Source: an uncultured Rhodospirillales bacterium (GTDB lineage: Bacteria > Pseudomonadota > Alphaproteobacteria > Azospirillales > Azospirillaceae). From it: 63,945 nt of DNA. Shown here one piece after another: positions 11,105-55,925 of the stretch. A program made the translations under genes and the position numbers. Under the pieces are notes generated by a model. It ran no database searches and was not told the DNA's origin. It worked only from the letters and a program-made list of their open reading frames with translations. Position 1 is the stretch's first letter, and the number at the start of each line of letters is the position of its first letter. Location: contig CAIOBP010000160.1 in the NCBI GenBank assembly GCA_903856295.1, forward strand, positions 1 through 63,945, in the 5' to 3' direction.

Positions 11105-11131
11105 GGCCGAGTCTCCCCATTTACCCGAGCA

Positions 11132-18903: not shown

Positions 18904-18929
18904 AGGGGGCCTCCTCGGAGCGCTCAGAG

Positions 18930-19946: not shown

Positions 19947-20425
19947 GACTGCCCCCCGCGCAGCTGGGAGGCCTTGGCGATGATCTTGCTGAGCGAGACG
20001 TCGCGCGAGCGCGCCTTGTCGCGCATGGCGTCCTCATGGGCGGCCAGCGCCTGGGGCTCCCAAATCTGGAAGGTCTTGCGCCGGCCGACAAACGCCGCTT
20101 CCTCGGCGATATTGGCGAAACGCGCCAGATGTTCGGGCAGCACGATCCGGCCTTCGCCGTCGAACGGCACCTGCACCGACCCGCCAAAGATCGTCGTTTC
20201 GTACAGCTCGTAATCCTCGTTGGACAGATCCAGCGCTTCCAGGCTGTCGCTCAGCTGCTCCATGTGCTCGGCGCTGCACGCCTCGAGAGCGGGATACTGG
20301 AGCGACTTGAAGACCACCACACCCTGGTACGACTGGCCAGACAGCACCTTGCGAAACTCGGCCGGAACCGAGACCCGCCCCTTCTTGTCAACCTTGTTGA
20401 CGTATGTCGACAGGTAGACAGCCAT
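19943..20425 (-). CDS. mraZ: Transcriptional regulator MraZ
   Basis: MraZ is a DNA-binding protein with two AbrB-like domains that forms a ring and represses its own dcw promoter in studied bacteria. The first domain starts STYVNKVDKKGRVSVPAEFR (residues 6-25); the second carries the matching DGEGRIVLPEHLA motif near residue 90. It is 160 aa and the first gene of the cluster. Four TGGG-type repeats with 10-bp spacing lie about 100 nt upstream. Confidence 0.96.
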   Translation of the reverse strand: MAVYLSTYVNKVDKKGRVSVPAEFRKVLSGQSYQGVVVFKSLQYPALEACSAEHMEQLSDSLEALDLSNEDYELYETTIFGGSVQVPFDGEGRIVLPEHLARFANIAEEAAFVGRRKTFQIWEPQALAAHEDAMRDKARSRDVSLSKIIAKASQLRGGQS

Positions 20426-20528
20426 TGGTGCCGTTGTCCTCAGGGCTGGTGGTGCACGACCACGCTGATCTTGAACTTGCGCCCCCGCCCCGGCATCCGG
20501 TCGAGATGGGAAACACCCCCGTATCGGT

Positions 20529-20562
20529 TGGGTCCGGATGGACTATCATGGGATTTTATGGG
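20529..20562. promoter_or_regulatory. MraZ operator: four 10-bp-spaced TGGG repeats
   Basis: On the plus strand TGGG occurs at 20529, 20549 and 20559, with TGGA at 20539, so four units are in exact 10-bp register. This matches the TGGGA-N5 direct repeats bound by MraZ rings. A further TGGG at 20507 is out of register. The repeats overlap the predicted mraZ promoter, which fits autorepression. Confidence 0.7.
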
Positions 20563-20569
20563 TCGTCAA
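20542..20569 (-). promoter_or_regulatory. Likely mraZ (dcw) promoter
   Basis: On the minus strand TTGACG (20569-20564) is followed after 16 nt by GATAGT (20547-20542), a reasonable sigma-70 -35/-10 pair upstream of mraZ. Its spacer and -10 lie within the MraZ repeat array. The leader would be about 110 nt. Confidence 0.5.
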
Positions 20570-21075
20570 CCACCACAGGCAAATTTTGTGAAATTGTGGA
20601 AGGTTTGCTGGACACTGTCTCAAACCAGCCCCACCCCCAGGCGAGCATCACCAAAATGTAGTGGTGGCCAATACTAGATATATGCTCTCCACCGAGTCGA
20701 AGCTCGAGATTTGGACAGGTTCTTTCTCTGTTCCGACCCCTGAATGCAGCGCAGCACAGCCCCGGAATCGCCCTGATCCGCGACTCGGTTTATAAAGTTT
20801 TAACCGCTTTTTTTGGCGCTGTTTCGGGCATCATTCATGGGATGAGATGGGCAGCACACCAGATCTTCGGCATCACTCGGAACGGCCGGGAATTGCCGCT
20901 CGGAACCGCTCGTAATGGCGCGTTGTTGTTCGAAGACCGAATCCTGATCCAGGCGATCGCATCGGGATTTGGGAGCGGCGGCGACCGCCGCCACTCCGCG
21001 CGTGCGGGCGGAGCCAGGCCGTCGGAGACGGCGCCGGAAAGCGGTGGCGGCGACCGCTTCGTCGAAAGGAAAAGT

Positions 21076-21486
<411 letters not shown>

Positions 21487-21546
21487 GTGCGCACCCTAGA
21501 GCATATGAACAGGAAACGGAACCGGTTCGTGGCCCGGCCGATCCGA

Positions 21547-22440
21547 TCACGCCCTCTCGTAGCGAATGCGGTTGCGGCCGGCCTGCTTGGCCCGATAGAG
21601 ACCGATGTCGGCACGCTTGAGAGCGGGCGCGATGTCGCCCTCCCCCTGCGCCAGGGCGCCGATGCCGATACTGACGGTGAAGCCGAGAGCCTCATCGTCC
21701 CGGAGTGGCAAGGACAAGGCCGCCACGGCGCGCCGCACCTTTTCCGCCAGCGTCAAAGCCGCGCCCGGAAAAACTCCCGGCAGCAAAACGGCAAACTCCT
21801 CACCGCCCAACCGGCCCAGAACCCCAACCTCACCGACGACGCCACGGCATGCGGACACGAATGCGACAAGCGCGCGGTCGCCGACGTCGTGGCCATGGCT
21901 GTCGTTGATCCGTTTGAATTTGTCGATGTCCAGCATGAGCACGGTCAGCGGCATATCATGACTGCCGGATCGCGCCACCGCCTCGGCGGCCAGGCAGAGA
22001 AAATGACGACGGTTCAGCGTCCCGGTCAGACCATCGGTGGTGGCCAGCCGCACGAGTTCGCGCTGCATGCCGAGAAACCGCTCGCCGGCCCGCAACCGCG
22101 CCCACAACATGGCGCGGGACAATGGCTTGCGCAGCAAATCGTCGGCCCCGGAATCCAGTGCCTCGGTGTATTTCTCGACCTGCTCACTGGCCGTGATGAC
22201 CAGAATGTAGGGATAGTGGCTGTCGCCCCGCGCGCGGATCGCCCAGCACAATTCCGGACCGGTGACCTTGGGCATTTCCCAATCCGCGATCACCATATCG
22301 AACGGCTGGGACTGGGTGTTGACCACCTCCAGCCCCTCAGCGCCATCGCAGGCCAGCACGATTTGATGCCCGAACGCCGTGAGCCACTCGACCAGAATCG
22401 AGCGCATCAACTGGGTATCGTCAACCACCAGAATCCGCAT
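21547..22440 (-). CDS. Response regulator with GGDEF output (diguanylate cyclase, PleD-like)
   Basis: The N-terminal receiver domain (1-120) has the acidic pair D7/D8, phosphoacceptor D53 in IADWEMP and K105. A GGDEF domain follows, with GGEEF at 212-216, so phosphorylation probably controls synthesis of cyclic di-GMP. The RxxD inhibitory site expected five residues before GGEEF is absent (GEVG), suggesting no product feedback. Length is 297 aa. No cognate kinase is adjacent; rnpB lies just downstream. Confidence 0.93.
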   Translation of the reverse strand: MRILVVDDTQLMRSILVEWLTAFGHQIVLACDGAEGLEVVNTQSQPFDMVIADWEMPKVTGPELCWAIRARGDSHYPYILVITASEQVEKYTEALDSGADDLLRKPLSRAMLWARLRAGERFLGMQRELVRLATTDGLTGTLNRRHFLCLAAEAVARSGSHDMPLTVLMLDIDKFKRINDSHGHDVGDRALVAFVSACRGVVGEVGVLGRLGGEEFAVLLPGVFPGAALTLAEKVRRAVAALSLPLRDDEALGFTVSIGIGALAQGEGDIAPALKRADIGLYRAKQAGRNRIRYERA

Positions 22441-22519
22441 CGATCAGCAGACCACATCCAGAAGGCGGAAAAACAGCCGCCATGAAGAGCCGGACCGGCT
22501 TATACAAGCAAATCAATTC

Positions 22520-22572
22520 AAAGAAAACTAGAAAGCGGCCGGCCGGAAGAGGCGGCAACCTCTTCCGGCCGG
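22520..22572 (-). terminator. Strong terminator after prpE
   Basis: A perfect 14-bp stem CCGGCCGGAAGAGG/CCTCTTCCGGCCGG with a 6-nt loop (22539-22572) is followed on the minus strand by a T-rich run. It lies 17 nt past the prpE stop and insulates the REC-GGDEF gene downstream. Confidence 0.9.
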
Positions 22573-22588
22573 CGGTAACGCACCCAGC

Positions 22589-24490
22589 TTACGCCGACTT
22601 GGCGTAGCCCAGGCTCTTCAGGGCCTCGGCGATTTCCGGCAGAATCGCCGGATCGTCGATGGTCGCCGGACACTTGTATTCAACGCTGTCGGCGATCTTC
22701 TGCATGGTTCCGCGCAGGATTTTGCCCGAGCGGGTCTTGGGCAGACGCTCGACGACCACGGCGCGCTTGAAGTCGGCGACCGGGCCGATCTTTTCACGCA
22801 CCAGCGCCACCACTTCCTTGACGATTTCGTCATGGGACTTCTTGACGCCGGCCTTGAGCACCAGGAAGCCGAGCGGCACTTGGCCCTTGAGCTGATCGGC
22901 GACGCCGATCACGGCGCACTCGGCGACGCTCTGGTGACCCGACAGCACTTCTTCCATGCCGCCGGTGGAGAGGCGATGGCCGGCGACATTGATGATGTCG
23001 TCGGTGCGGGCCATGATCGAGATGTAGCCGTCTTCATCAATGAAGCCGGCGTCGCCGGTCTGATAATAGCCCGGATAGTCGGCCATGTACGACTTGAGGA
23101 AGCGGTCGTCGGCGTTCCACAGGGTCGGCAGCGAGCCCGGGGGCATCGGCAGCTTGACCACGATGGCGCCGATGTCGCCGTCCGGCACCTGCTGCTGCTC
23201 GGCGTTGAGCACACGCACGTCCCAGCCCGGCAGCGGCTTGGTCGCCGAGCCGTACTTGACCTTGAACTTGCAGATGCCCAGCGGATTGCCGGAAATCGCC
23301 CAGCCGGTCTCGGTCTGCCACCAGTGATCGATCACCGGCACGTTGAGCTTGGTCTCGGCCCACATCAGGGTATCGGGGTCCGAGCGCTCGCCGGCCAGGA
23401 ACAGGGCGCGGAAGCCGCCAAGATCGTACTTCTTGAGGAACTCGCCGTCCGGGTCCTCGCGCTTGATGGCGCGGAAGGCGGTCGGCGCGGTGAACAGGGT
23501 CGCGATCTTGTGCTGGCTGATCATGCGCCAGAACGCGCCCGGGTCCGGCGTGCCCACCGGCTTGCCTTCAAACATCACGGTGGTGCAGCCGTAGAGCAGC
23601 GGCCCGTAGCAGATGTAGGAGTGGCCGACCACCCAACCCACGTCGGACGCCGCCCAGAAGCGCTCACCCGGCTGCATGTTGTACATGTACTTCATGGTCC
23701 AGGTCAGGGCCACGGCATGACCGCCATTGTCGCGGACGATGCCCTTGGGCTGACCGGTGGTGCCCGAAGTGTAGAGGATGTACAGCGGATCGGTGGCATC
23801 GACCGGCACGCACTCGGCCGGAGCGGCGGCGGCGGCACCCTCGACCCAATCGACGTCGCGGCCGGCGACCATGCTCGCCTCGGCCTGGGGACGCTGATAA
23901 ATGACGGTGTGACCCGGCTTGTGAATCGAAAGATCGATCGCCTGGTCGAGCATCGGCTTGTAGGGCAGCACCTTCTTGCCTTCGATGCCGCAGGAGGCCG
24001 AGACGATGACCTTGGGCTTGGCGTCGTTGATGCGGGTCGACAACTCGCTGGGGGCGAAACCGCCGAACACCACCGAGTGGACCGCGCCGATGCGGGCGCA
24101 GGACAGCATCGCGATCACGGCTTCCGGAATCATCGGCATATAAATGATGACCCGGTCACCCTTGCCGACTCCGAGCTTGCGCAGCAGGCCGCCGAACTGC
24201 GCCACCTGCCCCTGAAGTTCACGGTAAGTAATCGTACGGACAACGCCGGTAACCGGGCTGTCATAAATAATCGCCGCCTGATCGGCCCGGCCGCGCTCGA
24301 CGTGACGATCCACGGCATTATAGCAGGTATTGAGCACGCCACCCCGGAACCAGCGATAAAACGGCGGATTGCTGCTATCGAGCACCTGCGTCGGGGTCTT
24401 GACCCAATCGATGGCTTTGGCAGCTTCACCCCAGAAGGCTTCCGGATCGTTGACGGACTGCGAGAACATCTGTTCGTAAAGACTGGTCAT
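22589..24490 (-). CDS. prpE: Propionyl-CoA synthetase (PrpE/ACSS3 type acyl-CoA ligase)
   Basis: The enzyme activates propionate (and acetate less well) with ATP and CoA through an acyl-adenylate. The AMP-binding core YTSGTTGQPKG and the A10 motif PKTRSGKILRGT with its acetylatable lysine are present. The stretch GFAPSELSTRINDAKPKVIV is characteristic of the PrpE branch rather than Acs. The start at 24490 (MTSLYEQMF, 633 aa) has AAGGA 7 nt upstream; the longer open frame upstream has no family match. It is monocistronic between a 490-bp promoter region and a strong terminator. Acetate specificity cannot be excluded. Confidence 0.9.
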   Translation of the reverse strand: MTSLYEQMFSQSVNDPEAFWGEAAKAIDWVKTPTQVLDSSNPPFYRWFRGGVLNTCYNAVDRHVERGRADQAAIIYDSPVTGVVRTITYRELQGQVAQFGGLLRKLGVGKGDRVIIYMPMIPEAVIAMLSCARIGAVHSVVFGGFAPSELSTRINDAKPKVIVSASCGIEGKKVLPYKPMLDQAIDLSIHKPGHTVIYQRPQAEASMVAGRDVDWVEGAAAAAPAECVPVDATDPLYILYTSGTTGQPKGIVRDNGGHAVALTWTMKYMYNMQPGERFWAASDVGWVVGHSYICYGPLLYGCTTVMFEGKPVGTPDPGAFWRMISQHKIATLFTAPTAFRAIKREDPDGEFLKKYDLGGFRALFLAGERSDPDTLMWAETKLNVPVIDHWWQTETGWAISGNPLGICKFKVKYGSATKPLPGWDVRVLNAEQQQVPDGDIGAIVVKLPMPPGSLPTLWNADDRFLKSYMADYPGYYQTGDAGFIDEDGYISIMARTDDIINVAGHRLSTGGMEEVLSGHQSVAECAVIGVADQLKGQVPLGFLVLKAGVKKSHDEIVKEVVALVREKIGPVADFKRAVVVERLPKTRSGKILRGTMQKIADSVEYKCPATIDDPAILPEIAEALKSLGYAKSA

Positions 24491-24980
24491 GTTGTATCCT
24501 TCTTGAGCTCCCCGGAGCAATTTTGTTAACGGGCCACGGACCTTTGAGCCGCGAACCGAAAGTGTGCGACAAAACCATCCCCAATTGCAAATCCTGATTG
24601 ATCTGTTGCACTGCGAGAGTTTTGGTCTTGACCAAGTCTCCGCAGCCGCGTTCGCGACTGCAAAAAGACCTGGGCGGCAGCCCAGCCATCGCAAATCTGA
24701 CATCAACATTTGACAAGAAGAAATTTTAAATCCCGCATTTGCCGAGTTGGCGCCATGATCATGCTTCTTCAGGAAACATCCTTCGGCAACGCGCGTTTCG
24801 GCGCAGCGTCGTCTTAAAAGGTTCGAGAGGACAGGAACGCACCGGCGCCCGCCGACGCCGGCCATGCGAACCGGGGTGTGTCAAGGCCGGCGCCGGACGG
24901 ACAGCGAGACTCGGCACCACGGCTGCCTGGACGTGCAGCGGCTCAAACCACGCTTCGGCGCACGGGAAACCCCGAACCCC
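24491..24980. other. Intergenic region upstream of prpE
   Basis: This 490-bp gap separates the STAS-like gene from prpE, both on the minus strand. It is relatively AT-rich near 24580-24730, as expected for a promoter, and contains several TTTGCAA/TTTGCGA-like words that could be operators. No gene is supported; frames here lack a start or family features. Confidence 0.5.
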
Positions 24981-25460
24981 TCATCCGTGTTTGGGGGCCG
25001 CAGCGGCGGTGGCGCCGGTGGCGGCAGCGGCGGCGGCGGCCTGTTTTATGCCGGCGGCGGCGGCAAGCGCGAAGGTATGCGGCGAGTGGTACACCTTCAG
25101 CGTCCCGTCGAGGCTGGCCCGCTTGCAGGCGGCGGTGATCTTGTTAGCCTGATTCTCCGCGCAAACAACCGCAATCGTCACCTGTTTCTCGACAGAGATA
25201 CCCTTGATCAGCAAAATAAGCCCCAGAGCGCCATCATCAATCGACAGAGTATTCCTGAGATCGAATGCGACATATTTTTGATCAATTCCGCAAAACCAGT
25301 TGATGATATCATGAGCCGTCTTGGCCGCAACCACCTCGAAATTACCAAAGAATACGACCATCAAACCCCACGGCTCGACGTTTGCGACAATTTTCGCTAA
25401 TTTTGTCTCGTACACCGTTCTTGACTCGGCTTCTGCCTTGACCGGAGCTTCCTTGCTCAT
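24981..25460 (-). CDS. STAS-like domain protein with Ala-rich tail
   Basis: The central 110 residues resemble a STAS (anti-sigma-antagonist) fold: a beta strand FDLRNT, then SIDDGALGLILLIKGI where antagonists have a D-S-S-G-L phosphorylation loop. Here the phosphorylatable serine position is Asp (DD), so the protein may be locked or regulated otherwise. A low-complexity Ala/Thr tail ends in PKHG. I chose the ATG at 25460 (159 aa), preceded by GGGGG; an ATG four codons earlier is possible. Base composition of the first two thirds is lower in GC than the neighbours. The fold call is inferred. Confidence 0.55.
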   Translation of the reverse strand: MSKEAPVKAEAESRTVYETKLAKIVANVEPWGLMVVFFGNFEVVAAKTAHDIINWFCGIDQKYVAFDLRNTLSIDDGALGLILLIKGISVEKQVTIAVVCAENQANKITAACKRASLDGTLKVYHSPHTFALAAAAGIKQAAAAAAATGATAAAAPKHG

Positions 25461-25593
25461 GGTATCCCCCATCTTTACCAGGACAGTGCCGTGGCATCGA
25501 CCCGATGTCCCTGATGAATACCAGAGAACGGCAAGCCTGGGATCATAATAACTCAAACGACCTTTCCTGAGAATACCGAAAGACAGGAGGCAC

Positions 25594-26739
25594 TTATACC
25601 CTTATGTCGCCGCAGGCCGCGGCCGATACCGCCGGGCGCCGGCAGTGCTCCCCCCAAACCGCCAGAAACCGCTCGACCTCGCCCCGGCCGCTGCCCCGGC
25701 CGAGACTGACGCGAATGGCGCAAGCGGCCAGATCGGCGGCGATGCCCATGGCGCTGAGCGTGGCCGAGGCGCGGGCCTTGCCGCTGGAACAGGCGGCGCC
25801 GGCACTGACCGCGATCCCGGCCAGATCCAGGGCCATGACCTGGGTTTCCGCGGCCTTGCCGGGCAGAATCAGGCAGGAGATGCCGGCAACTCGGGCGGCG
25901 GCGGCACCGGGAATGCGCAGTTCGGGAGCCAGCGCCCGCGCCCCGCGTTCGAGATCAGCGCGCAACGCCGCGAGCCGGGGGGCATCGGCGATCTCCCCAC
26001 CGGCCAGCGCGGCGGCGGCCCCGAAGCCGGCGATGCCGATCAGGTTCTCGGTCCCGCCCCGGCGCCGGCGCTCTTGGCCGCCGCCGGCGATCAGCGGCGC
26101 GAGGGTCAGGCGCTCATCGAGCACCAGGGCGCCCACCCCCATCGGTCCACCAAGCTTGTGGGCCGACAGCGTCAGCAGATCGGCGCCCAGCGCCGCCCGG
26201 TCGAGAGGCAGGCGGCCGGCGGCCTGAACCGCGTCGCAATGGAGCAAACCGCCGGCCCGGTGAACCAGCGCCGCCGCCTCGGCCACCGGCTGAATCACCC
26301 CGGTCTCATTGTTGACCAGCATCAGCGACAGCAGCGCCGGGGCCGGCAGTCCGGCCAGCAACGCCTCAAGGGCCACGAGATCGGCAACGCCGGAGCCATC
26401 CACCGGCAGCCGCGCCGCCGTGGGCGCCGCCGCCGACACCGACTCATGCTCGACCGCCGAGACGATCCGCGCGGCGACGGCCAGACCGGTCAGGGCGAGG
26501 CTGTTGGCCTCGCTGCCACCGCTGGTGAAGACCACTCCGGCCGGGCTCGCCCCGGCCAGCGCCGCGACCTGCCGCCGGGACGCTTCGAGCAGCGCCCGCG
26601 CGGCGCGGCCGAAGCGATGCACCGAAGAGGGATTGCCGGTCAGCGCCATCGCCCCGAGCATCGCCGCCCGCGCCTCGGCACACAGGGGCGCCGAAGCGGC
26701 GTGATCGAGATAGCAGGGCGGAAGGCTATTCGCCGTCAA
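25594..26739 (-). CDS. Cysteine desulfurase (NifS/IscS family)
   Basis: This PLP enzyme moves sulfur from cysteine to a persulfide for Fe-S cluster or thio-cofactor assembly. Seen are the PLP-stacking H98 (VEHES), PLP lysine K195 in SAHKLGGP, and active-site C317 in SAGAACSSGKA. The length of 381 aa with a long catalytic loop indicates class I. No ATG fits; the best start is TTG at 26739, which overlaps the iscR stop by 14 nt with GGAGG upstream. It is the third gene of a cysE-iscR-desulfurase operon. No iscU or sufBCD follows in the window. Confidence 0.9.
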   Translation of the reverse strand: MTANSLPPCYLDHAASAPLCAEARAAMLGAMALTGNPSSVHRFGRAARALLEASRRQVAALAGASPAGVVFTSGGSEANSLALTGLAVAARIVSAVEHESVSAAAPTAARLPVDGSGVADLVALEALLAGLPAPALLSLMLVNNETGVIQPVAEAAALVHRAGGLLHCDAVQAAGRLPLDRAALGADLLTLSAHKLGGPMGVGALVLDERLTLAPLIAGGGQERRRRGGTENLIGIAGFGAAAALAGGEIADAPRLAALRADLERGARALAPELRIPGAAAARVAGISCLILPGKAAETQVMALDLAGIAVSAGAACSSGKARASATLSAMGIAADLAACAIRVSLGRGSGRGEVERFLAVWGEHCRRPAVSAAACGDIRV

Positions 26740-27208
26740 GGCCGGGTTCGTCCTCCAGATCGGCCGGCGAGACGAAGACCGGCGGCCCGGCGCCCGGCAC
26801 CCGCCGGTTGATCACATCGGCCACCGTCACCGCGCTCAGATAGCCGTAAATCTGATTGCCCAGCCCCTCCCAAAGATCATGGGTCTCGCAGCGGCTCTTG
26901 TTGGCATGACACCCGGCGGGCGTGCCCAGAAAACAGCGGGTGGTGCGGATCGGCTCGTCGACCGAAAGAATGATGTCGGCGATCCGGGTGCCCTCGGCGG
27001 GAAAGGCCAGCAGATAACCGCCGCCCGGCCCGCGCACGCTCTTGACCAGCCCGCCCTTGCGCAACCGCGCGAACAACTGCTCAAGGTACGACAGCGAAAT
27101 ATCCTGCCGGTCGGCGATGTCGGCGAGCGACACCGGCTGGCCGGCGCTGTTGGCCGCCAGATCGATCATGGCCATCACGGCATAGCGCCCCTTGGTGCTC
27201 AGCCTCAT
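26726..27208 (-). CDS. iscR: Rrf2-family Fe-S regulator, IscR-like
   Basis: Rrf2 proteins sense Fe-S status through a winged helix and a Cys-ligated cluster. The winged helix covers about 1-70 ([18 protein letters not shown], then [20 protein letters not shown]). Potential cluster ligands are C92, C100, C107 and H110. Spacing is C-x7-C-x6-C-x2-H, wider than E. coli IscR (x5, x5, x2), so a RirA-like assignment is an alternative. The 160-aa product overlaps cysE by 4 nt and the desulfurase by 14 nt, implying one operon and probable feedback from the desulfurase. Confidence 0.82.
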
Positions 27209-27855
27209 TTCTGCCCCTCCCCGATCCGACGGTTCAACTCTGCAACCTTTTTGTTCAGCTCGGCGATGGCGCAGCTCACCGGGTCCGGGCTGCCATCGCA
27301 CGGCGTGCCATAGGCGAGAAACCGCGGCGCCCCCGCCCCCTCGCGCCCGCCCACCGGCTTGGCCGGACTCCCGAGCACGGTCGCTCCCGGCGCGACCGCC
27401 GACACCACCACGGCATTGGCGCCGACCCGCGCGCCCTCGCCGATCTCGATCGCCCCCAGCACCTTGGCGCCGGCGCCGATGATCACCCGGTCGCGCACCG
27501 TCGGATGGCGCTTGCCCCGCGCCAGCGACGTCCCGCCCAGGGTGACGCCATGATAAATCAGCACGTCGTCGCCGATCTCGGCGGTCTCGCCGACCACCAC
27601 CCCCATGCCGTGATCGAAAAACACCCGCCGGCCGATCACCGCCCCCGGATGAATCTCGATGCCGGTCAGAAACCGGCCAAATTGCGAGATCACCCGCGCC
27701 AGCAGCCACAACCGCCGCCGCCAGGCGCAATGGGCCAACCGGTGCAGCAACAGCGCGTGCAGGCCGGGATAGCAAACCAGCACCTCCAGCCGGGACCGGG
27801 CGGCCGGATCCCGGGCGATGATACCGTCGATGTCGTCGATCAGGCGCCTGAACAC
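27205..27855 (-). CDS. cysE: Serine O-acetyltransferase CysE (short EpsC type)
   Basis: CysE acetylates serine to give O-acetylserine for cysteine synthesis. The left-handed beta-helix hexapeptide repeats run from about residue 66 ([11 protein letters not shown]) to 165 (GSPAKPV), including the catalytic [17 protein letters not shown] region. At 216 aa it is the short form. The start is GTG at 27855. It is the first gene of an operon with iscR and a cysteine desulfurase, joining cysteine supply to sulfur mobilisation. Confidence 0.93.
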
Positions 27856-46125: not shown

Positions 46126-46821
46126 ATGACCGGCCGGAACATCCCCAGTTTCATCGATGGAGAGTTCACTGTCGCCTCCCTGATTTCCGAGGCGCTGGAA
46201 TACCGGGCGGCGATGACGGATCATGATGTCAATCAAGGTCTGCTCAAGGAAATCGTGACGCAATTCGTCGAAACCGAACGAAAACTGGCGGCGGCCCATG
46301 CCGAAGTGCTGGCGCTGTCGAGGGCCGATGGCCTGACCGGCATTGCCAATCGACGCTGTTTCGATGAGAGACTGGGTCTCGACTTTGCCCGGGCCTTGAG
46401 AACCAAGTCACATCTTGGCCTGCTGTTGATCGATATCGACTGCTTTAAACTATACAATGACAATTATGGCCATTCCGCTGGTGACGATTGCCTCCGGCTC
46501 GTCGCTCAGGTGATCAAGCACAATGTCAGACGCTTGCCGGATCTCGCCGCCCGCTACGGCGGCGAGGAAATCGTCTGCCTGTTTCCGGACACCGGCATCG
46601 AAGGCGTGGCCAGTGTCGGCAACGCCATTCTTGAAGAACTGCGCACCAAAGCCGTCCCCCACGCCCATTCGGTGGCGGCCAAGATCGTGACCGTGAGCAT
46701 CGGCGGGGTGTCGATCATCCCCACCGACGGCATGACCCCGACCGACATCGTCATCGCCGCCGACAAGCAACTGTATGCCGCCAAGAAAAATGGCCGGAAC
46801 CGTCTGGTGCTCGGCGAGTAG
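46126..46821 (+). CDS. GGDEF diguanylate cyclase
   Basis: This 231-aa protein synthesises cyclic di-GMP from GTP. A short N-terminal helix and coiled coil (about 38-65) leads into a GGDEF domain (about 66-231) with DIDCFKLYNDNYGHSAGD and the active motif YGGEEIV. The product-inhibition site RxxD is present as RLPD, five residues before GGEEI, unlike the REC-GGDEF protein at 21547-22440. It is co-transcribed with the ODP-like gene and probably receives its signal. Confidence 0.93.
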   Translation: MTGRNIPSFIDGEFTVASLISEALEYRAAMTDHDVNQGLLKEIVTQFVETERKLAAAHAEVLALSRADGLTGIANRRCFDERLGLDFARALRTKSHLGLLLIDIDCFKLYNDNYGHSAGDDCLRLVAQVIKHNVRRLPDLAARYGGEEIVCLFPDTGIEGVASVGNAILEELRTKAVPHAHSVAAKIVTVSIGGVSIIPTDGMTPTDIVIAADKQLYAAKKNGRNRLVLGE

Positions 46822-48249: not shown

Positions 48250-48346
48250 CATCTCTCTCCGGCGTTCGGGCGGCCCCGGACTGTAGCCGATTCCCCTCCG
48301 TGACACAATGCAGCATTTCCGGGGCACTCCCGCCCGCCCGCAACGG

Positions 48347-48374
48347 CAAAAGCCCCGCCGTCACCGGCGGGGCT
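48347..48374 (-). terminator. Terminator of cassette B
   Basis: AGCCCCGCCG-tcac-CGGCGGGGCT (48351-48374) is a perfect 10-bp stem, followed on the minus strand by TTTTGCC. It ends the curlin-like/micro-ORF cassette B. Confidence 0.9.
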
Positions 48375-48424
48375 CTGCTGGACCTGACGGGGATGACGGA
48401 CGAAACGCCGTCATCGACCGATCA

Positions 48425-48493
48425 TCAGGAGCGGGTCTTGCCGGCGCGAACCGGGGTGGAAACCGGGAAACCGGGGGAGATCGACTTGGTCAT
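48425..48493 (-). CDS. 22-residue micro-ORF B
   Basis: ATG at 48493 to TGA at 48425 encodes MTKSISPGFPVSTPVRAGKT followed by RS. GAGGA lies 7 nt upstream within GAGGATACTGTC, a leader identical to that of copy A. Seventeen of 22 residues are identical to copy A, and five codons differ only synonymously, evidence that the peptide itself is selected. No family is known to me. It is rich in Pro, Thr, Ser and basic residues and has no signal peptide or membrane segment. It is the last gene before terminator B. Confidence 0.65.
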   Translation of the reverse strand: MTKSISPGFPVSTPVRAGKTRS

Positions 48494-48541
48494 GACAGTA
48501 TCCTCATGGATCGGAGTGGGGAAAAACCCTGAGGCCGCGCG

Positions 48542-48886
48542 CTACCGCGACAGCACCAGGACGGGGCGAGAACCGAAGCTCCCGGAGAAGCCGCTGTACG
48601 AACCCCTGATTTGTTCGGTGCGTCCCAGCAAGTAACTGACATTGCTCTGGCTGGATCGCAGGCTGCTCCGAGTGAGCGGACTGGAACCGCCGGACCAACT
48701 CCACATCGCGTCCGCCGGGGGAAGGAGGAGCATGACCGAGGCCGAACTCAGGTAACCGCCATGAACGATCAGCGGCACCTGGGCGGCCTCGCTGGCGCTC
48801 ACGATGATCTCGGCCCGGGCGGCGCCCCCGGCAAGCCCGGCCCACAGGGCCAAGGCGACAGACAGAAGACGCGACGCTTTCAACAT
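48542..48886 (-). CDS. Secreted 114-aa protein, unknown
   Basis: A clear signal peptide (MLKASRLLSVALALWAGLAG, cleavage near ARA-EII) is followed by about 90 residues rich in Ser, Gly, Leu and Val. The end, YSGFSGSFGSRPVLVLSR, is glycine/aromatic-rich. No family is recognised. GGGGGGC precedes the ATG. It sits between the curlin-like gene B and micro-ORF B and is absent from cassette A, so it may be an assembly or partner factor for the repeat protein. That role is inference from position only. Confidence 0.65.
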   Translation of the reverse strand: MLKASRLLSVALALWAGLAGGAARAEIIVSASEAAQVPLIVHGGYLSSASVMLLLPPADAMWSWSGGSSPLTRSSLRSSQSNVSYLLGRTEQIRGSYSGFSGSFGSRPVLVLSR

Positions 48887-48958
48887 GGTACGCCCCCCTG
48901 CGGTTTGGACAGCCCGGCCGCGAGGGCCGGGCGATCCATCACAACAGTCGGACCAGGA

Positions 48959-49297
48959 TCAATGGCCGCCGCCGATGCCGCCGACGGTGGTCTTGGCCGC
49001 ATTGCCCTGACCGATCGCGGTGGTGTTGACGTCATGGGCATTGGCATTGATGCTGGTGTTGCCCTGGATCTGGGTGCCGCCGGCGATGCCGCCAACCATG
49101 GTGTCGGCGGTGTTGCCGGTGCCGATCGCGGTGGTGTTGACGTTCTTGGCATTGGCGTTGATGCTGGTGTTGCCCTGGATCTGCACGCCGTTCGGGTTGC
49201 TGCTCTGCTGAACCTTGACGCCGCCGGCCGACTGGGCGAACGCGGCGCCCGAAACGGCGATGAGAGCGGCGGCGGTCAGGATGGTGAGCTTACGCAT
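48959..49297 (-). CDS. Curlin-like secreted repeat protein B
   Basis: The 112-aa protein has a signal peptide (about 1-21, AAFA-Q). The mature part holds two repeats of about 37 residues (38-74 and 75-112). Each has QIQGNTSINANA, then VNTTAIGxGN and a GG-rich turn. Regularly spaced Asn, Gln, Gly and Ile within short strands are the hallmark of curlin-type amyloid subunits (compare CsgA/CsgB), though no Pfam-grade match can be claimed. About 93 percent identical to copy A. GGAG precedes the ATG. No csgG or csgE-like secretion gene is adjacent. Confidence 0.72.
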   Translation of the reverse strand: MRKLTILTAAALIAVSGAAFAQSAGGVKVQQSSNPNGVQIQGNTSINANAKNVNTTAIGTGNTADTMVGGIAGGTQIQGNTSINANAHDVNTTAIGQGNAAKTTVGGIGGGH

Positions 49298-49437
49298 GGA
49301 AAATCTCCGAATTGGATGTTTGTTTCTCTAAGGTCTCTCCGGAATACTGCCCTTTTCCTCTCTGGAAAGATCGGCATCTTTTCCCGGAACCTTGTGACAC
49401 CATGAAGGTCTCACTTTTTCGCCGCGCGTTCAATCCA

Positions 49438-49480
49438 GCTCTTGGTCGTATGTCCTGGTTATAGGCCGAAAGGCATATCC
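49438..49480 (-). promoter_or_regulatory. Shared upstream element of cassette B
   Basis: This block (minus strand core CTTTCGGCCTATAAC) is nearly the same as 50204-50245 upstream of copy A. Both lie about 140-180 nt before the ATG of their curlin-like gene. TATAAC could be a -10 element; the flanking near-palindromic words could bind the neighbouring NarL-type regulator. Confidence 0.5.
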
Positions 49481-49513
49481 ACCCCACCGCTCCCTGCCGC
49501 CGCACGCCAAACG

Positions 49514-49547
49514 ACAACGGCCCCGCCAGTGCTGGCGGGGCCGTTGT
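49514..49547 (-). terminator. Terminator of cassette A
   Basis: A perfect 16-bp stem ACAACGGCCCCGCCAG with its complement and a 2-nt (tg) apex is followed on the minus strand by CGTTTGG. It separates cassette A from the promoter of cassette B. Confidence 0.85.
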
Positions 49548-49588
49548 TTCACTCCGGGACCCGATAAAGGGCCGTCATGACCCGAACA

Positions 49589-49657
49589 TTAGAAGCGGGT
49601 CTTGCCAGCGCGAACGGGAGTGGCAACCGGAAGTCCAGGATTGATGGTCTTGGTCAT
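49589..49657 (-). CDS. 22-residue micro-ORF A
   Basis: ATG at 49657 to TAA at 49589 encodes MTKTINPGLPVATPVRAGKT followed by RF. It has the same upstream leader (GAGGATACTGTC) as copy B. Substitutions relative to copy B are conservative (S4T, S6N, F9L, S12A) except for the last residue, while codons for P7, G8, T13, P14 and A17 differ silently. It lies 66 nt after the curlin-like gene A and 42 nt before the terminator stem. Confidence 0.65.
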   Translation of the reverse strand: MTKTINPGLPVATPVRAGKTRF

Positions 49658-49723
49658 GACAGTATCCTCACGGAACAGGGGTGGAGAGACAACCTCAGAA
49701 ACGCTGCGGTATGCCGCAGTGGA

Positions 49724-50062
49724 TCAATGGCCGCCGCCGATGCCGCCGACAGTGGTCTTGGCCTTGTTGCCCTGACCGATCGCGGTGGTGTTGACGTCAT
49801 GGGCATTGGCGTTGATGCTGGTGTTGCCCTGAATCTGGGTGCCGCCGGCGATGCCGCCGATCATGGTGTCGGCGGTGTTGCCGGTGCCGATCGCGGTGGT
49901 GTTGACGTTCTTGGCATTGGCGTTGATGCTGGTGTTGCCCTGAATCTGCACGCCGTTCGGGTTGGTGCTCGACTGCATGCTGACACCGCCAGCCGACTGG
50001 GCGAAAGCGGCGCCCGAAACGGCGATCAGAGCGGCGGCGGTCAGGAAGGTAAGCTTACGCAT
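49724..50062 (-). CDS. Curlin-like secreted repeat protein A
   Basis: This is the paralogue of the gene at 48959-49297, also 112 aa with the same signal peptide and two repeats of about 37 residues. Changes cluster in residues 28-33 just before the repeats, plus I6F, V68I-type and A101K-type substitutions. The conserved start context GGAGATTTTCCATGCG is identical. It is the first gene of cassette A and is divergent from the NarL-type response regulator. Confidence 0.72.
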   Translation of the reverse strand: MRKLTFLTAAALIAVSGAAFAQSAGGVSMQSSTNPNGVQIQGNTSINANAKNVNTTAIGTGNTADTMIGGIAGGTQIQGNTSINANAHDVNTTAIGQGNKAKTTVGGIGGGH

Positions 50063-50436
50063 GGAAAATCTCCAAAATCTGATAAGGGTTTCTTCGAGAG
50101 TTCTCCGAGCTGTGGCTCTCCTGGTCTTTCAACGACCTTGCCGAGGCTCCCGGAACTTCGTGACAAGCTGAAGGTCTCACCATTCTGCCTGCGGATCAAT
50201 CAGGCTCTTGGTCATATGCCTAGGTTATAGGCCGAAAGACATACCTTCCCCGATCGCAGAGGGACGCGCGCAACCAGCATCCAAAAGAGCGCCAGCTAAG
50301 GTTTTCAGGAAAATCACTGGCGCGCCCGGCCGGTTTTCCCGATACTCAGCCGGACCGTAGCCACTGAAACTCCGGCCCGCTCCATCGGGAGCCGCTCGCC
50401 ATCGGAACCGCCGTTTCGCTGATCGGGGAAAGCACC
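50063..50436. other. Divergent region, curlin-like A and response regulator
   Basis: This 374-bp region carries the shared element at 50204-50245 and further stretches similar to the region before copy B (for example CCCGGAAC and TGAAGGTCTCAC), showing that the promoter was duplicated with the genes. The plus-strand promoter of the regulator must also be here. No extra gene is seen. Confidence 0.6.
50204..50245 (-). promoter_or_regulatory. Shared upstream element of cassette A
   Basis: Minus-strand core CTTTCGGCCTATAACCTAGG, matching 49438-49480. It contains the inverted words GCCTA and TAGGC. It lies between the curlin-like gene and the response regulator gene and is a candidate operator. 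Confidence 0.5.
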
Positions 50437-51072
50437 ATGAAGATTCTGATTGCCGACGACCATGCGTTGTTCCGGGGCGGACTGAAGCTTCAGTTGCAGC
50501 AGTTCAAGGCCGGCGGCGAAATCGTCGATGTCGATAATTTCGAGAAACTGCTGCCCGCCGTGGCCGAGCACCGCCCGGATATGGTGATCGTTGACCTGGG
50601 CATGCCCGGAATGCCCTGGCGCGAGGCGATCGGGCAGCTGCGCGCCACCTTTTCCGAGACCAGGCTGGTGGTGCTCTCGGCCAACGATGACGACAACAAC
50701 GTGCGCGACGCCTTGCGTCTGGGCGCCAATGGCTTCATCTCGAAAAGCGATCCGCCCGAAGTGGTGATGGCGGCGCTGCAACTGGTCTGCTGCGGCGGCA
50801 CCTGCGTGCCCTCGAACTTCACCCAGCACGCGACTCCGGTGCCGGAAACCACCGCCGCCGGCTCGCCGGTCACCCACCGGCAGCGCGAAGTGCTGGAACT
50901 GATGGCCGAAGGCTGCTCCAACAAGCTGATCGCCTACAAGCTGCAATTGACGGAAGGCACGGTCAAACAGCACGTCGCCGCCGTGCTGAAAACCCTCGGC
51001 GCCACCAACCGCACCCAGGCCGTCGCGGCCGCCCGCTCGGCCGGCGTGCTCTGCGACCGCCCCCATCCCTGA
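50437..51072 (+). CDS. NarL/LuxR-type response regulator
   Basis: This 211-aa transcription factor has a receiver domain (1-120) with acidic pair D7/D8, phosphoacceptor D53 in VDLGMPG and K103-type lysine in FISKSD. A LuxR helix-turn-helix (about 143-205) includes THRQREVLELMAEGCSNKLI and LTEGTVKQHVAAVLKTLGA. It is divergent from curlin-like gene A and convergent with the hybrid kinase gene, so it probably forms a pair with that kinase and may control the cassette. Confidence 0.92.
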   Translation: MKILIADDHALFRGGLKLQLQQFKAGGEIVDVDNFEKLLPAVAEHRPDMVIVDLGMPGMPWREAIGQLRATFSETRLVVLSANDDDNNVRDALRLGANGFISKSDPPEVVMAALQLVCCGGTCVPSNFTQHATPVPETTAAGSPVTHRQREVLELMAEGCSNKLIAYKLQLTEGTVKQHVAAVLKTLGATNRTQAVAAARSAGVLCDRPHP

Positions 51073-51132: not shown

Positions 51133-53664
51133 TCACAGCCGGGTCACAGGGTCCCTGAATTCCTCGGCCAGCACCGCCCACAGGGCATCGGGCCGAACCG
51201 GCTTGTGCAGAACCCGGAAGGCGAAGCCCGCGCCCTCGGGCTGAGGCGCGGTCTCGCCGGTCAGCAGAATCACCCGGGGCCAGAAGCCGATGGCGCCAGC
51301 GATCGCAGCGATCGCGGCCTCGCCGGTTTCACCATCGTCCAGGCAATAGTCGCACAGGATCAGCCGCGGCCGCCGCCGCTCCGCCAACTCCACCGCCTGC
51401 TCGATGCGCGAGGCCGCCATGACCTCGAGTCCCCAGTCGAGGAGTTGCAGCCGCAGGCTTTCGCGCACCCGGTCGTCATTGTCGATGACCAGCACGACGC
51501 AATTGGGGAAAGACGCCTGGGTCACCGCCACCCCCGCGGGCTCGGACAGCGGCACCTCGGCCCGGACCCGGGCCAACTCAACCGCGAAGGTCGAGCCATG
51601 GTCGACCCGGCTCCTGACCGCCAGCGGATGGCCAAGCAGGCGGCACAGGCGATGGACGATGGACAGCCCCAGCCCGAACCCCGGAATCGTGCCCCTGGAA
51701 CCGCCCGAGCGGCCGATCCGGAAGAACTCGTCGAACACCCGGGACAGCAGCTTTTCCGAAATGCCCTCGCCGGTATCGATGACCTGAAGCACCACCCGCG
51801 CCCCGGCGCGCCGGCAGCCGACCAGCACCTTGCCGCCCGAGGGCGTGTAGCGGATGGCGTTGGTGACCAGATTGTTCAGCACGCGCTCGAGCAGCACCGG
51901 GTCCGACCGCACATGCAGATGGCAGGGCACCACCGTCAGCGACACCCCCTGCTGCTCGGCCAGCGGGCAGTAGAGGCTCCAGAGCCGCTCCAGGAGATCG
52001 CCCAGCAGGACCGGACGGATCTCGGGCTTGACCACCCCGGCGTCGAGCCGGGAAACATCCATCAGCGAATCGAGCAGCGCCGACAGCGAGGTGGTGCACT
52101 CGACCACCCGCCGCAGGATCTCCTCGGGCTCGCCCTCGGGAATGTGTTTCGACAGCACATTGACGTAGAACGCCAGGGCCTGCACCGGCTGGCGCAAATC
52201 GTGGCTGGCCACGGCGAGGAACCGGGACTTCAGATCGTTGGCCGACTCCGCCGCTTCCTTGGCCTCGGCCAGCTGGTTCTGCCAGAGCTTGCCGACGGTG
52301 ATGTTGACGAAAGCCGCCTGAATCGCCGGACTGCCATCCCACTCGACCGGCCGGATCGAGTTCAGGCACCACAGCGGTTCGCCGTCGCAGTCCCGGCTGG
52401 CGAACTCTATGCTGGCGGGTTGGCGGCTGCGCTCGACCTCCCTGGTCGCCTCGATCACCGCGCCGCGGAACTCCGCCCCGACCAGATCGAGAAAACTCGG
52501 CAAGGCCAGAACCCCGCTAACGTCATCGAGCCCGAACAGCCGCGCGAAGGCGTGGTTGACCAGCAGCGGCTTGAAATCGCGATGGATCAGAATGCCCTCG
52601 ATCGCGCCGTCGAACAAATTCTGGTAGGCCTTCCGCGCCTGATCCAGCGCCTTGGTCCGCTCGTCGACGCGGTTTTCCAGCTGCTCGTTGAGATGCGCCA
52701 GCGCCTCGGTGGCGCGGCGGCGCTGCTGCTCGCGCCGGTCGAATTGCAGGCCCAGATTGACCGTCACCAGCCCGACGAACAGCAGCACCGCGCCGCTGGT
52801 GACGATGCCGCTCCACCAGGTCTTCTTGACCGTCGACACCGGCACGCCGGCAATCACCGCCAGCGGATAGGACGGCACCTCGCGATAGACGCTGATTTCG
52901 TCCTCGCCATCGAGCGAGCCGCCGGTTCTGAACGACTTGCTCCGCTCGCCGCCGGGCGAAATATCGGCCAGCGCCTCCGGGCTCAGCGAGGAGCCGATCC
53001 ATTTGTCGCCATAGGGAAAGCGGCCGAAGACGATGCCGTTGACGTTGATCAGCAGCACATTGCCCCGGCCGTGCATGCCGGTGGATTGCAGCGGATCGGC
53101 GAAGAAATTGGACTTCAGCACCGCCGCGACCACGCCGCGAAACCCGCCATCGGGGCCGCGCAACGGCCGCGACAGGGTGATCTGCCATTCGCCAGTTTCC
53201 GGATCGCGCAGGGGGCCGTCGATCACCACGTGGTTGTCGGGGAACATCTCGCGCTGGAGCAGGAAGAAGTCCCGGAGCGAGGCGTCGCGCGTCCCCGGCT
53301 GTCCGATCGAGCGCGCCCGGCCGAGACGGTCGGTCACCACCAGCTCGGCCATTTCGGGAAAGCTGCGCGACTGGATGTTCAGGCTTTCAAGCACCTCCGG
53401 CCCGGTTTCGCCGTCATTGGCCAGGACATATTGGCCGACATGCTGAATCAGCAAATCGATGGTCCGCAGACTGCCGCCGATCTGCTCGGCCGCCGCGGTC
53501 GCCAGCACACGGGCGAAGTCGTCGGTCTTGGCGACTTCGACCTGCCACTGATTCCAATAAGACAATCCCGACAGGGAAAACATGCCGCATAAGAAGATCG
53601 TCGCCAAAACCGCGGCGCTGCTGACCCGGCTGAAGCGATAGGTATCGATCTCGTCTGGCTTCAC
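51133..53664 (-). CDS. Hybrid sensor histidine kinase (Cache-PAS-HisKA-HATPase-REC)
   Basis: The 843-aa membrane kinase has a transmembrane helix at about 17-37, a periplasmic dCache-like sensor (about 50-280), a second helix (about 285-305), a coiled coil, a PAS domain (LFDGAIEGILIHRDF), a HisKA box with H in VASHDLRQPVQAL, and ATPase motifs NLVTNAIRY, DTGEGIS and GFGLGLSIV. A C-terminal receiver has its phosphoacceptor in LCDYCLDDG. The HDLRQP box is typical of kinases paired with NarL-type regulators. The neighbouring regulator at 50437 is the likely partner. Confidence 0.93.
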   Translation of the reverse strand: MKPDEIDTYRFSRVSSAAVLATIFLCGMFSLSGLSYWNQWQVEVAKTDDFARVLATAAAEQIGGSLRTIDLLIQHVGQYVLANDGETGPEVLESLNIQSRSFPEMAELVVTDRLGRARSIGQPGTRDASLRDFFLLQREMFPDNHVVIDGPLRDPETGEWQITLSRPLRGPDGGFRGVVAAVLKSNFFADPLQSTGMHGRGNVLLINVNGIVFGRFPYGDKWIGSSLSPEALADISPGGERSKSFRTGGSLDGEDEISVYREVPSYPLAVIAGVPVSTVKKTWWSGIVTSGAVLLFVGLVTVNLGLQFDRREQQRRRATEALAHLNEQLENRVDERTKALDQARKAYQNLFDGAIEGILIHRDFKPLLVNHAFARLFGLDDVSGVLALPSFLDLVGAEFRGAVIEATREVERSRQPASIEFASRDCDGEPLWCLNSIRPVEWDGSPAIQAAFVNITVGKLWQNQLAEAKEAAESANDLKSRFLAVASHDLRQPVQALAFYVNVLSKHIPEGEPEEILRRVVECTTSLSALLDSLMDVSRLDAGVVKPEIRPVLLGDLLERLWSLYCPLAEQQGVSLTVVPCHLHVRSDPVLLERVLNNLVTNAIRYTPSGGKVLVGCRRAGARVVLQVIDTGEGISEKLLSRVFDEFFRIGRSGGSRGTIPGFGLGLSIVHRLCRLLGHPLAVRSRVDHGSTFAVELARVRAEVPLSEPAGVAVTQASFPNCVVLVIDNDDRVRESLRLQLLDWGLEVMAASRIEQAVELAERRRPRLILCDYCLDDGETGEAAIAAIAGAIGFWPRVILLTGETAPQPEGAGFAFRVLHKPVRPDALWAVLAEEFRDPVTRL

Positions 53665-54878: not shown

Positions 54879-54974
54879 CCGGGTTCGTCCGGGCGGTGCC
54901 GGACTGGCGGACACGGCCGTTGGCGCCGGCCGGGCACAAGCGGTGATGTTCGGTTTTCTGGCTTGGCGCGCCTG

Positions 54975-55925
54975 ATGGCCGCGCGCAAACGGGTCTTGCT
55001 GCCGCCCGATCTCGACGCGTTTCTCGATATGCTGGTCGCCGAGCGCAATGCCGCCGCCAACACCCGCGACGCCTACCGCCGTGACCTGGAAGACGCCGGA
55101 CGCTGGCTCGGCGAGCACGGGCCGGGGCTGAGCGAGGCCAACGACGACGAACTCAGGAGCTATCTCCGGCACCTCGGCGAGGCCGGCGCCGCGCCGCGCA
55201 CGGTGGCCCGGCGACTGTCGGCCTTGCGCCAGTTTTACCGCTTCCTGTGTTCCGAAGGCCGGCGCGCCGACGATCCGGCCTCGGCGCTCGACAGTCCGGC
55301 CCAGGGGCGGCCCCTGCCCAAATTGGTGGACGAGCCCGGCGTTTCCGCCCTGATCGCCGCCGCCACCCGGCTCCAGGGCGCCGAGGGCGTCCGGCTGGTG
55401 ACGCTGCTGGAGGTGCTGTACGCCACCGGCCTGCGGGTTTCGGAGCTGGTCGGGCTGCCGCTGACCGCGATGTCCCGCGATACCCGCTGCCTGATCGTGC
55501 GCGGCAAGGGCGGCAAGGAGCGCATGGTGCCGCTGTCGCCGCCGGCCCGCGAGGCGCTGGCCCGATGGCTGCCGCTGCGGGGCGGCTTCCTGCCGCCGGG
55601 AGGCGGCAAGGCCGAGCGCTACCTGTTTCCCTCGCCCAACGCCGCCGACGGCCACCTCACCCGCCAGGGCTTCGGCCTGATGCTGAAGGAGGTGGCGCTG
55701 GCCGCCGGCCTGGACCCGGCCAAGCTCAGCCCCCACGTGCTGCGCCACGCCTTCGCCACCCACCTGCTCGACCATGGCGCGGATCTGCGCAGCGTCCAGA
55801 TGATGCTCGGTCATTCCGACATCGCGACCACCCAGATCTACACCCACGTCACCAGCGAGCGCCTGAAACAAGCGGTCGTCGAGCACCACCCGTTGGCCGG
55901 CCGGCGCAAGAAAACCGATGAATAG
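54975..55925 (+). CDS. xerD: Site-specific tyrosine recombinase XerD
   Basis: XerD with XerC resolves chromosome dimers at dif under FtsK control. The N-terminal SAM-like domain (1-105) precedes the catalytic domain with the full set of residues: R154 (ATGLRVSEL), K178, H254 and R257 (SPHVLRHAF), H280 (MLGHSDI) and nucleophile Y289. The length of 316 aa suits XerD. The ATG at 54975 is used; an in-frame TTG four codons earlier is possible. Confidence 0.93.
   Translation: MAARKRVLLPPDLDAFLDMLVAERNAAANTRDAYRRDLEDAGRWLGEHGPGLSEANDDELRSYLRHLGEAGAAPRTVARRLSALRQFYRFLCSEGRRADDPASALDSPAQGRPLPKLVDEPGVSALIAAATRLQGAEGVRLVTLLEVLYATGLRVSELVGLPLTAMSRDTRCLIVRGKGGKERMVPLSPPAREALARWLPLRGGFLPPGGGKAERYLFPSPNAADGHLTRQGFGLMLKEVALAAGLDPAKLSPHVLRHAFATHLLDHGADLRSVQMMLGHSDIATTQIYTHVTSERLKQAVVEHHPLAGRRKKTDE

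Follow-up and report, generated by a model that had tools for sequence, protein, structure and literature searches.

Tandem-duplicated genes for small secreted repeat proteins in an uncultured Rhodospirillales bacterium: candidate subunits of a curli-type surface fibre beside a separate micro-gene

The DNA studied here is contig C160 of the genome assembly of an uncultured Rhodospirillales bacterium (4.02 Mb, 255 contigs); we call this whole stretch of 63,945 nt the window. On its minus strand, at 48345-50250, lie two adjacent units that each encode a 112-residue secreted repeat protein and a 22-residue micro-ORF (open reading frame), and all of their parts are on that strand. An initial annotation made from the sequence alone had described the units as a duplicated cassette with near-identical secreted repeat proteins (about 93%), a common upstream element, a micro-ORF and a strong terminator, and the first three of these were borne out: the repeat proteins are identical at 105 of 112 residues (their genes share 93.5% nucleotide identity, with 0.15 synonymous substitutions per synonymous site, dS), the micro-ORF peptides at 17 of 22 (77%), and the upstream blocks match at 77% over 104 nt. 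Given the direct repeats between the units, of 300 nt (94%), 104 nt (81%, at the micro-ORF) and 104 nt (77%, upstream), their similarity is not due to chance. The features are as follows.

49724-50062, minus strand: repeat protein A, 112 residues, an apparent Sec signal peptide (by eye) and two 37-residue repeats
48959-49297, minus strand: repeat protein B, 112 residues, 94% identical to A
48542-48886, minus strand: accessory protein P0005, 114 residues, signal peptide by eye, in unit B
49589-49657, minus strand: micro-ORF A, 22 residues, MTKTINPGLPVATPVRAGKTRF
48425-48493, minus strand: micro-ORF B, 22 residues, MTKSISPGFPVSTPVRAGKTRS
49514-49547 (approximate), minus strand: terminator-like hairpin of unit A, stem of about 15 bp
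48347-48376 (approximate), minus strand: terminator-like hairpin of unit B, stem of about 12 bp, TTTT
50148-50251, minus strand: upstream block of unit A (leader or promoter region), 104-nt direct repeat
49382-49485, minus strand: upstream block of unit B, 77% identical to that of unit A
50437-51072, plus strand: LuxR/GerE-type response regulator, divergent from the units, a possible regulator by position alone

Unit A runs from its upstream block through repeat protein A, a 66-nt gap and micro-ORF A to the hairpin; unit B has the upstream block, repeat protein B, the 114-residue ORF, a 48-nt gap, micro-ORF B and the hairpin, so that the two units differ in make-up by this additional secreted ORF, which the initial annotation had missed. 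An Rfam scan of the window returned RNase P as its sole match.

Within repeat protein A the two repeats are identical to each other at 28 of 37 positions, and in both window proteins each repeat has AIGxGN (AIGTGN and AIGQGN) at the place of the curlin QxGxxN, the minimal curlin repeat being given as x6-Q-x-G-x2-N-x10 (excerpt of PMC3521004). An AlphaFold2 model from a 9-row alignment (mean predicted local distance difference test, pLDDT, 70; predicted template-modelling score 0.54) showed a beta-only two-repeat body with pLDDT 80-89 at residues 41-110. When Foldseek was run with this model at E ≤ 10 there were nine matches, five of them to functional amyloids (HET-s twice, CsgA, FapC twice), all sub-threshold with probability ≤ 0.02; the CsgA structure 8enq stood in the list at E 3.7, and a second structure comparison pointed to HET-s alone (Z 3.0 and 2.7). 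Judged from these predictions, the repeat protein would be secreted, repeat-built and plausibly amyloidogenic; the amyloid appearance remarked on in the initial annotation thus stays plausible, with none of the five amyloid matches significant.

A profile of nine family members, searched against 386 genomes including the present one, found the repeat protein in 19 genomes at E ≤ 0.001, ten of these with clear copies (E < 1e-8). The ten genomes hold 23 clear copies, 19 of them outside the present genome and four within it, the latter being the window pair and two paralogues on contigs C1 and C224. In the C1 paralogue (C1:1-1106, minus strand) the reading frame carries on into a long Pro/Ala/Thr tandem-repeat stretch that is cut off by the contig end; one subunit may therefore be joined to a tail that spans the wall or serves as an anchor. 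A relative in G312 (locus L139:5593-6060) has three repeats, not two, so repeat number varies within the family. By eye, a two-repeat protein of similar pattern is also encoded on plasmid AZO_p4 of Azospirillum lipoferum 4B, 1.7 kb upstream of a DUF4384 lipoprotein gene that is followed by an OmpA-family gene. A search of a plasmid collection with the repeat protein of G010 gave no match, though the A. lipoferum plasmid was in the collection, which shows the search with this query to be insensitive.

In genome G010, the second repeat gene is followed after about 1 kb by the gene for a 531-residue lipoprotein, to which Pfam assigned PG_binding_1 and DUF4384 domains and a sub-threshold CsgG match (15.6 bits against a cut-off of 20.8). 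Searching the repeat-gene loci with it by tblastn, we found homologues in G026, G312, G176, G003 and G028 and on C224 of the present genome, and partial matches at the ends of the G019, G030 and G034 loci. A seven-member lipoprotein profile (E ≤ 1e-20) then matched 52 of the 386 genomes; in five the match covers the C-terminal part alone. Every one of the ten clear-repeat genomes has the lipoprotein (E ≤ 1e-198) and carries one or more repeat copies no farther than 2 kb from it, whereas 42 of the 376 others have the lipoprotein (Fisher P 9e-10, ignoring relatedness). The same-genus genomes G001, G002 and G004 have neither the repeat protein nor the lipoprotein in profile searches. For seven of the ten, the lipoproteins that built the profile had been found beside repeat genes, so the link there holds partly by construction; the other three, G019, G030 and G034, are outside the profile but of the same genus as two of its members. 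The C224 locus encodes in succession the accessory protein, the repeat protein, the OmpA-family protein, a 308-residue ORF and the lipoprotein. Two named records annotate the lipoprotein solely as 'DUF4384 domain-containing protein', and a literature search for DUF4384 together with CsgG found no paper.

By eye, ORFs lie around the putative export locus of C224 (bases 14000-27509) at local positions 2604-3062, 3430-3984, 5553-6479, 8078-10084 and 9406-11157; the surroundings include small Asn/Gly-rich secreted ORFs, a 308-residue ORF with an HExxH-like HEISH, a serpin-like ORF and a papain-like peptidase ORF.

On balance we favour, by a modest measure of confidence, the reading that the window pair are tandem duplicates, extra genes for the subunit of a surface fibre of the curli type, with the micro-ORF apart from this system. 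The 112-residue proteins would reach the periplasm by way of their Sec signal peptides and would then, as neighbourhood and co-occurrence suggest, be exported through a CsgG-like outer-membrane lipoprotein with peptidoglycan-binding and DUF4384 domains, supplied from the C224 locus, which also encodes the OmpA-family protein and paralogues of both the subunit (the third) and the 114-residue protein. Outside the cell, the two beta-repeats would stack into a fibre. The 114-residue protein may be a subunit-linked accessory, such as a chaperone, a nucleator or a minor subunit, and the micro-ORF would stand outside the fibre machine; the subunit duplication and the micro-gene would be separate neighbours that may share transcripts.

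Several results count against the fibre reading. In an hmmscan of repeat proteins A and B, PF07012 (curlin) did not match, nor did any other Pfam family up to E = 1 within the HMMER filters, and a script scan for Q.G..N found none in either protein; the same script found five matches in E. coli CsgA and five in CsgB, and among the nine family members it found the C224 paralogue alone, with two matches out of repeat register. As curlins, the proteins, which the initial annotation had called curlin-like, therefore fail two defining tests, the profile and the motif; that they work like curli is our best guess. The repeat profile did not match E. coli CsgA or CsgB significantly (E 0.25, probability 0.2%), a PDB sequence search with it gave no match up to E = 1, and Foldseek with the repeat-protein model gave none at E ≤ 0.001. 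On the side of the lipoprotein, four of seven homologues touch PF03783 (CsgG), the best at E 0.0058, below the gathering score; the C224 protein has no match to PF03783 up to E = 1, and the lipoprotein compared with E. coli CsgG by hhalign gave E 0.012 (probability 3.5%, not significant). A PF03783 search found no CsgG in the present genome or in G003 at E ≤ 0.001. The lipoprotein model has a mean pLDDT of 57, with residues 119-243 below 50 and the CsgG-like half poor, and its fold search returned mainly immunoglobulin-like folds, CsgG not being among the best 50 matches; as the model is poor and the matches are dominated by such folds, this search tests nothing about CsgG.

The distribution of the two proteins also speaks against the fibre reading: 42 genomes, mostly of one genus, have the lipoprotein with no clear repeat protein; weak repeat matches (E 1e-5 to 1e-3) occur in nine genomes, four of which have the lipoprotein; and five of the ten genomes with both proteins come from one genus. 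However, A. lipoferum 4B, a named genome of the kind with the lipoprotein and no clear repeat protein, has its two-repeat protein, so the profile may have missed more distant subunits in some of the 42. Finally, there is no export gene beside the window pair itself. The initial annotation had rightly seen no csg or hfa secretion genes adjacent to the units; a weakly CsgG-like lipoprotein locus is nevertheless present on C224, and because a repeat protein of the same kind accompanies such a lipoprotein there and in other genera, the view that the layout matches no known system had to be given up.

Among known systems, curli (csgBAC/csgDEFG, the type VIII secretion of E. coli) are comparable in their small secreted repeat subunits, encoded several times over and accompanied in our case by a weakly CsgG-like lipoprotein, in the G-x-G-N turn motif and in the LuxR-type regulator gene that diverges from the subunit genes in the window. 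Unlike curlins, the window proteins lack the QxGxxN glutamines and a PF07012 match and have two 37-residue repeats against the five motifs of CsgA, and the lipoprotein is about 500 residues long with added peptidoglycan-binding and DUF4384 domains. The Caulobacter holdfast anchor HfaA/HfaB/HfaD, in which an excerpt of PMC6707917 describes HfaA as an amyloid-like surface protein and HfaB as similar to CsgG, is comparable as an alphaproteobacterial pairing of an amyloid-like protein with a CsgG-like one; in contrast, PF03783 detects a CsgG-family protein in Caulobacter vibrioides and, at E ≤ 0.001, none in the present genome. Fap of Pseudomonas, likened here by its description in an excerpt of PMC5557850, is a secreted functional amyloid with Asn/Gly-rich repeats, and FapC structures are among the sub-threshold fold matches of the repeat protein; the Fap system also has a FapF-type channel and a periplasmic C39 protease, FapD.

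The best surviving alternative, which we regard as unlikely though worth keeping in view, is that the repeat protein forms no amyloid and serves in the periplasm or at the surface in another way, such as a small adhesin or a structural beta-solenoid, which the lipoprotein would anchor to peptidoglycan with no export involved. It would agree with the lack of any significant match to curlins or to a solved fold, and with a lipoprotein in which PG_binding_1 and DUF4384 are clear and the CsgG signal is sub-threshold; it accords less well with the recurrent adjacency to a weakly CsgG-like lipoprotein, with AIGxGN at the curlin QxGxxN place in both repeats, and with functional amyloids making up five of nine sub-threshold fold matches. 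If the fibre reading is true, Azospirillaceae and some other Alphaproteobacteria would have a curli-like fibre system that curlin and standard CsgG profiles miss, with two-repeat subunits lacking the curlin glutamines and a lipoprotein with added peptidoglycan-binding and DUF4384 domains. In many Alphaproteobacteria, curlin subunits were the sole curli parts identifiable (excerpt of PMC3521004), and the divergent lipoprotein would be a testable candidate exporter where subunits appear alone.

Homologues of the 114-residue protein P0005, 38% and 36% identical, lie beside repeat genes on C224 and on contig C192 of G003. Among 318 genomes, a search for P0005 relatives gave clear matches in the present genome and G003 alone and two weak ones (E 5e-4 and 9e-4), and the family adjoins a repeat gene in all three clear occurrences; no Pfam family matched it. 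Going by these relatives, P0005 is a putative lineage-specific accessory of the repeat protein, and a better candidate for its true partner than the micro-ORF.

The micro-ORF has four clear copies in the genome: the window pair, one on C114, 120 nt behind an HdeA/HdeB-family gene, and a solitary one on C79, with 156 nt between its end and the assumed start of a following operon that has a C39-ABC exporter. Variable alignment columns fall on codon positions 1, 2 and 3 in 5, 7 and 14 of 21 cases each (permutation P 0.0046), and dN is below dS in all six pairs. Inside the ORF any two copies share 42-49 of 63 nt, whereas in the flanks all pairs except A-B share 7-11 of 20 upstream and 4-8 of 20 downstream. 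The codon-position pattern and the sharp homology borders at ATG and stop indicate translation, and we take the micro-ORF to be apparently translated. The A-B pair differs: 17 of the 20 upstream nt agree, as do 14 of the 20 downstream; with so much upstream sequence in common, micro-ORFs A and B probably come from the same duplication. Their dS is nevertheless 0.65 (0.68 and 0.73 to the C79 copy) against 0.15 for the repeat genes, which points to a later homogenisation of the repeat genes or else to separate histories of the parts.

We scanned the flanks of repeat genes in six frames with a micro-ORF profile, over about 1.4 kb or more on each side unless the contig or locus ended, leaving the C1 copy, which reaches its contig end, out of the judgement. 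No micro-ORF was found near the 19 clear repeat copies in other genomes or the C224 copy: true copies score 55-60 bits, and the highest score in these flanks was 8.9 bits (E 0.22). Of the four micro-ORFs, those on C79 and C114 are away from repeat genes. The repeat protein thus occurs in other genomes without the micro-ORF in these flanks, the kind of outcome that the initial annotation had itself named as refuting its view. Its suggestion that the unit was kept whole and that the parts therefore probably work together fell with this result and with the unequal dS.

With the four-copy profile, 151 of 194 genomes gave matches at E ≤ 1, the best outside the present genome at E 6.8e-4 (G003). By eye, this match and about 19 other inspected loci look like short chance matches, with the exception of G013, and the pattern PVxTPVxxAG in 386 genomes had 16 matches in 12 genomes against 25 for a reversed control. 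A stricter pattern run on 84,980 named genomes returned 25 stretches, one of them micro-ORF-shaped: MTNREMPSRGLPVRTPVKAGDLPMF, followed by a hairpin, in Azospirillaceae bacterium PL23b_bin.89 (G013). Chance matches score in the range of its 17.9 profile bits, and it was selected out of many candidates, so it is a possible relative at most. In the genome-contig and viral-contig collections, searched with the four-copy alignment, 77 and 32 pattern stretches were found, none of them confirmed. A stretch at C114:29067-29111, antisense to the rplA-rplJ intergenic region, reads PGNPVATPVSAGQTF and resembles the micro-ORF core; sites in G082, G085, G101 and G103 (apparently Azospirillum) have surrounding sequence in common with it by eye, which looks like a conserved leader RNA rather than a peptide, and they were dropped as micro-ORFs. 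The micro-ORF therefore appears as a puzzle of its own, an independent, apparently translated 22-residue micro-gene in four copies, sitting before hairpins and with no confident relative in the other genomes searched.

What such a peptide might do brings us to the C79 operon (locus L046:2433-8128), which encodes a 180-residue membrane protein with no Pfam match, a 903-residue peptidase-C39 ABC transporter and a 726-residue ABC protein. In a phmmer alignment to solved structures of peptidase-containing ABC transporters (PCATs), the Cys, His and Asp of the C39 domain are conserved in position. The micro-ORF might accordingly be imagined as a secreted, pheromone- or bacteriocin-like peptide that this transporter exports and cuts, with the other copies feeding the same exporter, an idea we consider improbable. 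It would draw on the placement of the C79 copy 156 nt ahead of the operon, the kept catalytic positions, the conserved stretch up to AG and the four apparently translated copies, and it recalls PCATs with small peptide substrates in that one of four micro-ORF copies is followed by a C39-ABC transporter. Yet three copies are not near the exporter, and the exporter scores below the NHLM cut-off. Of 193 other genomes, G011 alone has an orthologue of the C39 part, with 60% identity in the N-terminal part; no micro-ORF was found upstream of this orthologue, which weakens the link. PCAT cleavage follows GG, sometimes GA, and may also follow GS; all four peptides have RAG, with no GG, GA or GS. A cut after the conserved Ala-Gly would leave a four-residue tail, an unusual product, and the K and R of that tail are invariant too. 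Leaders of such peptides are also not known to be proline-rich as this one is, a further point against a secreted peptide. More speculative still is an extended form of this idea, in which the micro-ORFs would be a species-restricted signalling or antimicrobial peptide family on three contigs with one dedicated C39-ABC exporter, two copies being co-transcribed with fibre subunits and so coupling fibre production to peptide release.

That the cassette is a functional unit, the micro-peptide acting with the repeat protein as, for example, a chaperone, nucleator or regulator of the fibre, is very unlikely: both genes are in both units, in the same order and strand, and the A and B flanks are alike, but none of the 19 outside repeat copies or the C224 copy has the micro-ORF in its scanned flanks, half of the micro-ORFs are elsewhere, and dS is 0.65 against 0.15. 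We give equally little credit to a conserved RNA element at transcript ends in place of a gene product, since the hairpin after all four copies and the shortness of the ORF are opposed by the third-codon-position excess, dN below dS in six pairs and homology from ATG to stop.

A GC-rich hairpin stands 3' of every micro-ORF copy (4 of 4). After micro-ORFs A and B the folding energies are -45.8 kcal/mol over 84 nt and -53.9 kcal/mol over 95 nt, with z -4.0 and -3.9 against dinucleotide shuffles (0 of 200 equally good); z is -2.8 after the C79 copy and -2.2 after the C114 copy (4 of 200 equally good). The strong terminators of the initial annotation are therefore strong as hairpins, but a consensus terminator scan listed neither unit hairpin, and with short T tracts and that empty scan we use the label terminator tentatively.

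The common upstream element contains the 15-mer TTTCGGCCTATAACC, which is found mismatch-free at two sites genome-wide, those in the two upstream blocks; the next best match, with one mismatch on C141, falls inside a phosphoesterase-like gene by eye and was set aside.

The response regulator at 50437-51072 was rejected as a cassette member, being on the opposite strand, and kept as a possible regulator. Convergent with it is a hybrid histidine kinase gene (51133-53664, minus strand), and a GGDEF protein gene lies nearby (46126-46821, plus strand). Curli are regulated by CsgD and cyclic di-GMP, and the neighbourhood of regulator, kinase and GGDEF protein may resemble that setting, by position alone. 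About 4.7 kb past the units, at 54963-55925 on the plus strand, there is a gene for a tyrosine recombinase with Phage_integrase domains.

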